A DNA stretch of 64,000 bases from Phlegmacium glaucopus (taxonomy: Eukaryota; Basidiomycota; Agaricomycetes; Agaricales; Cortinariaceae). The translations under genes were made by a program, and so were the position numbers. Below, piece by piece: positions 31,035-64,000 of the stretch (positions are counted from its first letter, which is position 1; every line of letters begins with the position of its first letter). The notes beneath the pieces are model-generated. The model was not told where the DNA came from. It searched no databases and saw only the letters and a program-made list of their open reading frames with translations. The DNA lies in assembly GCA_015039465.1 (NCBI GenBank), contig MU130626.1, positions 236,804 to 300,803 of the forward strand, in the 5' to 3' direction.

Positions 31035-31488
31035 TAGTGTTACCAAAGTTTGGTTCGGTTCGGTTCTTCAACCTTTTTTGAAGAACCGAGAACCGAACCG
31101 AAGGGTTCCTCATTGAACTGAACCGGAACCAGAACCAGAACCGATAGTATCTGTGTGTTGAAAAATTGTGTAGTTTTCTACTCCATACAAACTTGGAATA
31201 CATAAGACATACTGCCGATGACTTACAGTTAGATGACCTTATCTATATTCAACATTTAAAGGACCTTTGAGCTGTTGTCACTTACTTGCCTGCAGTTTAC
31301 TTGTTCCAAAAAAAAAAGATAAATTTATTGATGATATTGTTGTTGTCGTAGGTACGATCCTCGTATCATCTGATGATCATCGAACAATTTAGTTCGTTTA
31401 ATGTTATATTAAATTAAATTTCCAAAAATAGTAGCCAAGTTGTCAAGCTTGGCCAAGATCTTGGCCTGTCTTGGCTGTCTTGGCCAAG

Positions 31489-32271
31489 NNNNNNNNNNNN
31501 NNNNNNNNNNNNNNNNNNNNNNNNNNNNNNNNNNNNNNNNNNNNNNNNNNNNNNNNNNNNNNNNNNNNNNNNNNNNNNNNNNNNNNNNNNNNNNNNNNNN
31601 NNNNNNNNNNNNNNNNNNNNNNNNNNNNNNNNNNNNNNNNNNNNNNNNNNNNNNNNNNNNNNNNNNNNNNNNNNNNNNNNNNNNNNNNNNNNNNNNNNNN
31701 NNNNNNNNNNNNNNNNNNNNNNNNNNNNNNNNNNNNNNNNNNNNNNNNNNNNNNNNNNNNNNNNNNNNNNNNNNNNNNNNNNNNNNNNNNNNNNNNNNNN
31801 NNNNNNNNNNNNNNNNNNNNNNNNNNNNNNNNNNNNNNNNNNNNNNNNNNNNNNNNNNNNNNNNNNNNNNNNNNNNNNNNNNNNNNNNNNNNNNNNNNNN
31901 NNNNNNNNNNNNNNNNNNNNNNNNNNNNNNNNNNNNNNNNNNNNNNNNNNNNNNNNNNNNNNNNNNNNNNNNNNNNNNNNNNNNNNNNNNNNNNNNNNNN
32001 NNNNNNNNNNNNNNNNNNNNNNNNNNNNNNNNNNNNNNNNNNNNNNNNNNNNNNNNNNNNNNNNNNNNNNNNNNNNNNNNNNNNNNNNNNNNNNNNNNNN
32101 NNNNNNNNNNNNNNNNNNNNNNNNNNNNNNNNNNNNNNNNNNNNNNNNNNNNNNNNNNNNNNNNNNNNNNNNNNNNNNNNNNNNNNNNNNNNNNNNNNNN
32201 NNNNNNNNNNNNNNNNNNNNNNNNNNNNNNNNNNNNNNNNNNNNNNNNNNNNNNNNNNNNNNNNNNNNNNN
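31489..32271. other. Assembly gap, 783 N
   Basis: Run of undetermined bases inside the second hAT-like element. Translations across it are meaningless. Confidence 1.
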
Positions 32272-60615: not shown

Positions 60616-60973
60616 ATTACAGCTATTTGCGAAATGGTAGACGTTTTGAAAAATTTCTTATGTGCGTATAACTACCCATATTTAGGTATTTAGGCAGAAT
60701 TGATGCGCATGATGAGCCGAAAGCAGTGGAGCGGCTGCGCTATTTACATCTAGTACAGGTTCCTTGTCACCAACAGGGTCAACAATCAATATATTGCGAT
60801 GACATAGTGAATTTCACGCGAGGTGGGGGAAAGTGGAGCAATGAGGATTGAGGCCTTGAGGCCTTATTGAGGCACGGTTTGTTTGCACTATACTATATCT
60901 GGTTGTTTACAGTAAACAAAGGCGCAGATAAGAAAATTTCCAAAACGTCTACCATTTCGCAAATAGCTGTAAT
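60616..60973. mobile_element. MITE with about 52-bp inverted repeats
   Basis: The left arm (60,616-60,666) begins ATTACAGCTATTTGCGAAAT and contains GGTAGACGTTTTG. The right arm (60,922-60,973) is its reverse complement with few mismatches, ending AGCTGTAAT. The 255-bp interior is non-coding. The target duplication is not clear, so the superfamily is unassigned. Confidence 0.75.
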
Positions 60974-61387
60974 GACGCCAACTTCTTCATCCATCGACAT
61001 ATATAATACTTCATTTGGAACCCATTAGTATCCTTTGAAGCCCGATAGATTTAGTCTATGTAAAAAATTCATGATACGTAACTCCTGTAATTAAAGCCAC
61101 ATTCAGTGGGTCATTACAATTCGGCTGACACCTTGTCATACCTACTGTCGTTGTGCTACAGTCGTGGACAAGCAAAGCCCACTAATTTGGTATCTCGGCA
61201 AGGAGTGCATGTAGGGGTGAAATTTTTTCAGATTCTTGTTTAGATTGACGAAATGCATCAAACTTTCTGGAGGACGTTCCGGGATTCGAATTTACGAGCC
61301 GTACGAGTCAGTATTACGAGTCAATTACATAAGACATCATATCACATCACATCTACTGCGCTATCACAACGCAATCACTCACATAAG

Positions 61388-62060
61388 ATGAGCGTTAAAG
61401 ACCTCCTTCACCTTGCGAATCTCCATCCTCATGAGCTCAATGGGGAAAGTTTGATGAGGATCACCTTCTTTTTGACTTATGCACCACGCTTCAAGAACGA
61501 CATTCTTATTGTGCAAGATTCAAGGTGGCCGCCAAATAATCCCCCTCTTTACCTTCCAAAATCAATTACTTTTCTGCTGGCAAACCTTTGTGAGACAACT
61601 GATGATGTGGTGGATAGACTGTGGTTACTTTTGAGGGAGGTGGTCTGGGCCTTTGATGGGAAACTGAAAGAGATGGAGGCAAGGTTTCAGGCGTATGGGA
61701 AGGGCCTCAGCTACCGTAACTAGAAAATATTTGTATGCATTCTTATTTTCTGAAATAGAATGAGACAGATGCGATATATCCCCCAATGCACTACTGCACA
61801 AATTCAGATTGCGAGCGCACAAAAAGTGGTCTTAAGCTCCAGAAACTTAACCAAAAGGAGGGAATCTTGTACACACTGGATCGTGGTGCATGTCCTACCT
61901 GGATAATCAGTCTTGAGTGTCAAGGTATAGTATCTGAGCTACCAAATGAAAAATTTCTAATTGAATCTATAGGATGTCGTACAAGCTACCACAATAACTA
62001 CATGGTGACCAACGGTGTTCGCCACTACTACTCAGGTGAAGTTCCAGATATCATCGAGGT
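61388..62060 (+). CDS. KDZ-associated CxC5 gene, 5' part (interrupted by the mirror segment)
   Basis: Exons 61388-61715, 61769-61924 and 61973-about 62,060 are in phase. The N-terminus MSVKDLLHLANLHPHELNGE, the segment PLYLPKSITFLLANLCETTD and the CxC5 cluster are those of the cysteine-rich proteins that accompany KDZ (Kyakuja-Dileera-Zisupton) transposons in Agaricomycetes. The CxC5 cluster reads YPPMHYCTNSDCERTKSG, TLDRGACPTWIISLECQGC, then NNYMVTNGVRHYYSGEVPDI. The exon breaks off after IEV; the expected next residues (about T/G-D/E-H-R-Y-I-E) are not in the forward sequence. They appear when the window is read backwards from 64,000. With that continuation the gene has six exons and about 643 codons. 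Confidence 0.85.
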
Positions 62061-62374
62061 AACAAAGGTTTCCAAAAGCATTCTAACTCCTTGACCGATG
62101 AGCTGCTCTGATGTGCCAGTTCTCCCCGAAACTTCTCCACAAGTTCCAAGGAATACAGTTACCGTGAATGATACCAGTAGAGGTCGCCACCTTTGCACGT
62201 CGCGTCCTGTCGGCACTATAACGACTACCCAGGACCAGTCTAAAATACTTCTACCGAGCACGTGGACTACGTCTATAGTTCCGGCGTGCGTTTGCCCAGT
62301 TTGCGGTTTCGTACTTCGACCGAAGTCACGGATGGAGTTAACTTAGAAGACACCTGAGTTCACTGCTATACATC
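62061..62374. other. Second ORF visible only by complementing the mirror segment
   Basis: Complementing each base, read left to right, gives one open frame from the junction to a TAG at 62,372-62,374. It contains GFRKIEELATRRDYTVKRGF, then GTYYGHLQRWKRAAQDSRDI and PDADIKAARKRVKRQSMKLA. In the natural orientation this would be the 3' end of a gene on the strand opposite to the KDZ-associated gene, the two stops about 90 bp apart. It is truncated by the original window end. The family is not recognised; a partner gene of the KDZ element is possible. Confidence 0.7.
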
Positions 62375-64000
62375 CCGAGAATGTTGTATAATCAATAAGT
62401 TGACATCTGAGCTCTTGTATAAAAGTACATAAGATATAACTAAACATCATAAAACATAAGATAATAGTACAAGATATGTATCCCGTCACAGGGCGAAAGC
62501 GGTTGAAATGTACTCAGTAGACTAAAGCATCTTCTTAGTAAAGTAGTTCCTTCTTTAATATGGACAGGTGGTCGTAAAGTGCTTGTTAACGTACTTTTGG
62601 TGGGTTGGTTTGTAAACAGACGAGACGCTAACTTCTTAACTTCATGGTAGGGACGGGTAGGAGTCTTTCATCGAGGCCTTTTTCCCGTCCCAATGTCAAG
62701 TAAACCGTCTTCTGTAGGAAAACTCTTACGAATGTTAACTTTACTTTCTGTAGTTGTCTCTCGGGTTGTAGGAACTTAAGGCCCAGTAAGAAGTGTACAA
62801 AGCGTTCTGACGTTAATAACAGCTTCTTTTACACCAAACCGTAGACGGGTAACTAAGCTTTCCAAGCGAACTACTTAAGGATTACAATAGTACTATACCA
62901 GTTTCTATGAATAACTATTTAGTTGTCTTCGGTGAGGAATGGCGTGTACAAGGATAGCGGAGTCGGGGTATTTTACAGAGTGCGCGGTTCTAGTAAGGTG
63001 TTCCGCGTTGTTCCTAGACGAGCAATACACAGGCAGAGGCCGATTTAGATCGTGCTTAGGAGAAAAAGCCGTAACACCACTGACAACCATACGGTCACCA
63101 TACGAGGTTACGACCATGAAGACACCATCACTCCAATGGAGCAAGTAGTTGGAGTTTTTCAAGAAGTAGAAGTAGTAGTTGTTGAAGTTCTTCTAGGGAG
63201 AGGAGTCGTTATGGTAGTAAACCTACCCGGTGGAAACTAGCAAAGTATGCGACGACCTCGACTTTCGCCCTAACTGGTGCAAGTATCAACTACGCAAGTC
63301 GAAGGACTACCGGTCCCAGTAGTGTCCACGCGAAAGGTAGGGCGTGACCAAACGACGTCTTTAGTTGTTGTGTGAGACGTAAGAACCTACGTACACTTAC
63401 TGTCATAGCTAGAGCACTACTCCACTCCCCATAAAACGTCAACACGAGCCGTGTTGTACCTACCGGTTCCCAATAGGGTAGGTATTGTTGGTGTTTTTGA
63501 CTGAATCCGTGATTTTGCCCTCGTCTACTTGTTCGCGTCACTTCATATTTTTACTACTATAGTGAATGGAAGAGGTTTAAGTAGTATGTGAGCGTACGTA
63601 AACAACGTCGTCACGAGTTAAAGGCTGACGGGTATCGTGAACTCTGCATGTAAAGAAAGGGACTGTCGGAGACACTTAGCCAGCCGAACTAGAGGACATA
63701 CTCCGTGTTGATTATATCGTAACGCACTTGTTATCAGGAGCTCTTCCCTCTCCTGTCATTTAGGTATTATTTGTACCAGGGGGAAGTTTCGACTACGGAA
63801 GTTCCCGGTAGGAAGACCCTGACTGAGGTAGGGTACCAACTCTCTACATAGTATACAAGCTCGCGTCAAACAACGTCTAAAGGACGTTTTAACCACTCAA
63901 ATGATGCTTTTATATCTATGTCCTTCTACAATGTATGGTACGGTGTAAGTACAGTTACGCGGTGTACACTTATTGTGCCCAAAGTTACATGGCCACCAGC
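62061..64000. other. Mirror-reversed segment (reversed, not complemented)
   Basis: Read from 64,000 down to about 62,061 without complementing, the sequence continues the KDZ-associated gene in frame. Exon 3 resumes as DHRYIETRVIHMWRIDMNVA, ending at 63,938. Exon 4 (63,882-63,569) reads KSATNCARTYD, GDHVYYGFTVLSLLEDY and VPHTGDQADRFTEAVRERN. Exon 5 (63,510-62,942) reads VMDGITLGHPCCAEHNCK and RRRTHNEQILVAPCGMILA. Exon 6 (62,879-62,466) reads HIFFDNNCSLAK, DVFHFNCKHSQKDVFCQMNC and NSSIAEQTNVWLGGFHAIVR, then TGA. Each intron, also read backwards, starts GTATGT, GTAAGT or GTAAGG and ends AG. The boundary is 62,061 or 62,064, both of which keep the frame. Conventional frames in this segment are artefacts. 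Confidence 0.93.

Follow-up and report, generated by a model that had tools for sequence, protein, structure and literature searches.

The window examined here is a 64,000-nucleotide stretch of Phlegmacium glaucopus DNA (C226:236804-300803, in an assembly of 60.5 Mb and 259 contigs). Why does a KDZ-associated CxC5/CxC6 gene near its end break off in mid-exon at 62060, and why are the letters that follow written backwards without being complemented? The mirrored order is truly present in the deposited letters at 62061-64000, and the segment ends where the window ends because a scaffold gap of 9,516 N (C226:300804-310319) begins at the base directly after it. The relevant features are as follows.

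61388..62060, + strand: 5' part of the KDZ-associated CxC5/CxC6 gene in normal writing, exon broken at 62060 (tblastn and joined reading)
62061..64000, no strand assigned: mirrored tail (C226:298864-300803), the contig's true continuation reversed without complementing; 9,516 N next, beyond the window
about 63939..64000, no strand assigned: remainder of the interrupted exon, read backwards from 64000 (joined reading)
63569..63882, no strand assigned: next exon, read backwards from 63882 to 63569 (joined reading)
62942..63510, no strand assigned: following exon with the CxC6 part, read backwards from 63510 to 62942 (joined reading and Pfam)
62466..62879, no strand assigned: final exon, read backwards from 62879 to the stop at 62466 (joined reading)
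62063..62374, no strand assigned: closing part of another open reading frame, visible when the deposited letters are complemented and thus antisense after un-mirroring; no Pfam family
31489..32271, no strand assigned: N gap of 783 bases

The interrupted CxC5/CxC6 gene

When position 62060 was joined to the letters read backwards from 64000, the exon stayed open, the introns had GT..AG boundaries, and a reading of 528 residues (counted from the methionine at 61786) was obtained with no frameshift. The earlier note had described precisely this course, an exon breaking at about 62,060 and resuming in frame from the far end, then three further exons with GT..AG introns and a stop, and the joined reading agrees with it down to the stop at 62466. 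All four landmark peptides that it had listed were found in the reversed, uncomplemented string only; none occurs when the whole window is read forward, as its reverse complement, or as its complement. In the joined protein, CxC5 (Pfam PF18718) lies at residues 2 to 110 with 111.8 bits against a cut-off of 26.9 and spans the junction near residue 76, and CxC6 (Pfam PF18721) scores 85.6 bits against 27.5; with both domains above their curated cut-offs, the reading is that of a KDZ-associated CxC5/CxC6 gene.

A search with the joined protein retrieved 392 relatives at E <= 0.001, with full-length ones in many Agaricomycetes. The top relative, also from Phlegmacium glaucopus, has 61% identity over 99%, in an alignment that passes through the junction. 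On the normally written side, tblastn aligned residues 1-108 and 111-190 of P0001 to 61301-62060. By tblastn at E <= 1e-3, each of the 120 relatives searched, the best 120 of the 392, matched the reversed segment (409 HSPs), whereas none of these 120 matched the deposited segment on either strand. The protein homology expected by the earlier note for the reversed string was thus recovered, and an ordinary forward or reverse-complement homology that might have explained the segment better was sought among the same 120 relatives and did not appear. Other CxC5/CxC6 genes are tied to KDZ transposases (PF18718, PF18721), and the un-mirrored gene likewise carries both domains and has full-length relatives; the sole oddity that sets it apart is how this assembly writes its 3' part. 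A MITE-like element at 60616-60973, immediately upstream of the broken gene, consists of 51-base inverted repeats, 94% complementary, with 256 bases between them.

Compared with its own genome, the reversed string of 62061-64000 gave at least 27 matches: a 96-base piece at 99% and, for the rest, family copies at 65-83%. The deposited string gave two, namely itself and C164:84695-85581, a mirrored gap edge within a stretch that also runs out at N.

Mirrored sequence at other gap edges

We inspected stretches of C226 and C164 comprising 251.5 kb of letters, seven gaps, and 14 gap edges, a sample centered on known cases that does not yield a rate for the whole genome. Mirrored stretches, each about 0.3 to 3.9 kb long and reaching the N, occur at 8 of the 14 edges and total 14,343 bases; all eight segments adjoin N, which follows from the method for those detected by inspecting edges. 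They are listed with the evidence on which each call rests.

Edge 1, C226:298864-300803: the tail described above; gene continuity
Edge 2, window 31148-31488 (C226:267951-268291), no strand assigned: left of the 783-N gap; intact copy at C164:91074-91523
Edge 3, C226:310320 to about 311166: Markov score and complement relation to its neighbour
Edge 4, C226 about 403454 to 406276: Markov score, repeat copies, and a DUF6570 match
Edge 5, C226:407713-409089: intact repeat copies
Edge 6, C164:84695-86939: intact copy on C162 (L031)
Edge 7, C164 about 134456 to 138306: intact copy on C240 (L036)
Edge 8, C164:143191 to about 144109: homology to C164:159013-160489

At five of the eight, an intact copy elsewhere in the assembly crosses the junction unbroken once the tail is reversed in place. 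As deposited, edge 6 matches the normally written C162 copy for 144 bases and then breaks at 84695; with the tail reversed, the match extends over 1,598 aligned bases at 98.9%. At edge 7, the match to the C240 copy follows the contig as far as 134455 and continues in the reversed tail (2,650 aligned bases, 99.2%). Four repeat loci, compared among at least 40 copies, match the reversed tail of edge 5 and then the contig from 409090 without a break. For edge 8, the reversed tail is 94.4% identical to C164:159013-159938 and the contig 91.8% identical to 159939-160489. As deposited, the match of edge 2 to C164:91074-91523 ends after 113 bases, whereas that copy and the contig plus reversed tail align over 454 bases at 98.2%. 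Beyond the 783-N gap, the match resumes at C164:92363-93242, after 839 bases on C164. No intact copy spanning the junction was found in the assembly for the edges at C226:310320 and C226:406276, the latter having repeat copies that match its reversed tail at 81-86%. At edges other than that of the broken gene, intact copies match the reversed tails at 97-99%. Left and right edges follow one rule wherever tested: the deposited tail is the true tail reversed, lying between the true contig end and the N.

Some of these edges have features of their own. Read backwards, C226:403454-406276 has a coding stretch that matches DUF6570 with 86 bits against a cut-off of 24.3. At C226:407713-409333, the mirrored edge together with the adjoining contig is part of a high-copy repeat of at least 40 copies, most at 98-99%. 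Within C226:310320-311915, complementing the 748 bases next to the tail, with their order kept, reproduces the tail at 97.6%; this is a mirrored repeat, either inverted or tandem.

Each position was also scored forward versus reversed with a strand-symmetric fifth-order Markov model. The reversed reading was favored in 34 of 498 windows of 500 bases, and an unrestricted scan returned six maximal segments of more than 30 bits, all at gap edges with the near end at most 323 bases from N. With training and test scaffolds kept separate, all eight mirrored segments scored above zero (6.1 to 176.6 bits), the lowest being C164:143191-144109, whose call rests on homology. Held-out normal 1-kb windows had means near -26, with 9 of 231 above zero (largest, 22.4); among normal 500-base windows, 8 of 469 were above zero (largest, 11.5). 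The longest open frame lay in a mirror reading at seven of the eight edges, versus 27 of 200 random inner 2-kb pieces; at the short edge 31148-31488 the mirror readings held no longer frame. A Pfam search with peptides from mirrored edges gave a family in one of four.

Among the six edges without a mirrored stretch, the one at C226:269075 is normal by homology, its deposited letters matching C164 at 99.8%, and the outer 500 bases of the other five score negative. Outside the 14, a further mirrored edge was detected on C222 (L037, 462 to about 1500), which matches a mirrored C164 stretch as deposited (97.1%) and has a positive Markov score. On C162 (L035), the final 500 bases at the left edge of a gap scored +16.9; negative scores were obtained for two right edges (L033 and L031).

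Origin of the mirrored tails

We consider it very probable that the mirrored tails are an assembly artefact, left by a gap-reduction step that lengthened contig ends into gaps that it failed to close, the extensions being written in reverse without complementing. Such a step, and the fault in its writing, we infer from the edges. It would extend contig ends into scaffold gaps that stay unclosed, and each extension would then stand in mirror writing, with the true contig end on one side and the leftover N on the other. The most plausible fault would be a minus-strand extension that was complemented but not reversed on output; complementing a reverse complement yields the plain reverse, and every edge tested would be explained. 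Partial text of the PBJelly paper describes flank extensions being incorporated and the gap reduced when closing fails (PMC3504050), and according to passages of a Laccaria bicolor paper, PBJelly was applied to AllPathsLG assemblies (PMC12923307). In the passages on PBJelly-type long-read gap fillers (PMC3504050), added sequence sits on either flank of the gap, next to the contig end and adjoining a shortened N run, as it does here; the mirror writing is a difference, these passages describing no such fault, and PBJelly is a candidate tool only.

Three observations count against the artefact. Six of the 14 edges lack a mirror signal, and the fault must therefore act only where an extension was added. 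At C226:310320 and C226:406276, the search for an intact copy over the junction came up empty. The tails also lack the signature of raw long reads, because they have few indels relative to intact copies: the differences are few and mostly substitutions, for example, 14 mismatches and one gap of 2 bases in 1,453. The tails, judged from these comparisons, appear to be accurate consensus or to reflect repeat divergence, rather than being raw reads.

That accuracy is also compatible with polished or short-read consensus, and some other data-handling step (scaffolding, format conversion, a short-read gap closer, manual finishing, or submission) could have made the mirrored tails. We regard this as unlikely, with a modest chance of being right: mirroring is restricted to tails between contig and N while the neighbouring contig is normal, and added extensions fit this best. 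An edit or corruption of this window alone, deliberate or not, might seem to be favored by a segment that stops exactly at the window end, but the scaffold gap opens at the next base and C164 and C222 of the same assembly also carry mirrored tails; with the same pattern on other scaffolds, this explanation was rejected as highly improbable. Of the causes that the earlier note had put forward, the deliberate edit of the window accordingly falls away, and the assembly error is upheld by the N context, the share of sampled gap edges that are mirrored, and the intact copies in which the junctions disappear.

The few normal windows that favor the reversed reading under the Markov model are what can be said for a chance effect or ordinary diverged homology. 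Against it stand the tblastn contrast between reversed and deposited segment and the intact copies that fit reversed tails at other edges, on which grounds it was rejected, its probability being close to nil. Equally remote is a natural process producing mirror-image DNA, which has nothing in its favor except the sequence itself. The tails reach N runs, a property of data and not of DNA, and DNA synthesis and strand exchange preserve antiparallel polarity; natural mirror DNA was rejected for both reasons.

Reach and meaning of the presumed fault

In the literature searched, the coverage of which was partial, we found no report of a mirror-writing fault of this kind, and the portions consulted of PMC6733440 and PMC12923307 make no mention of one. 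One motif from 16S and one from 23S rRNA, both written backwards, gave zero exact matches each in 84,980 prokaryote species genomes, a weakly negative result, as the motifs had no forward control; these scans thus provide no evidence of a widespread fault. It is conceivable, if somewhat doubtful, that an unreported software fault left mirror-image DNA at gap edges of further public eukaryote assemblies and that some unexplained gap-side sequence is reversed text. A reversed-string search, or a forward-versus-reversed Markov score at N edges, offers quick detection.

For Phlegmacium glaucopus, the mirrored tail is no real biological feature, and its biological interest is nil. It is the product of a systematic, easily detected error that corrupts the sequence beside gaps in this genome. 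Tails of this kind would break genes beside gaps, conceal repeat copies from homology searches, and may seed false orphan genes.
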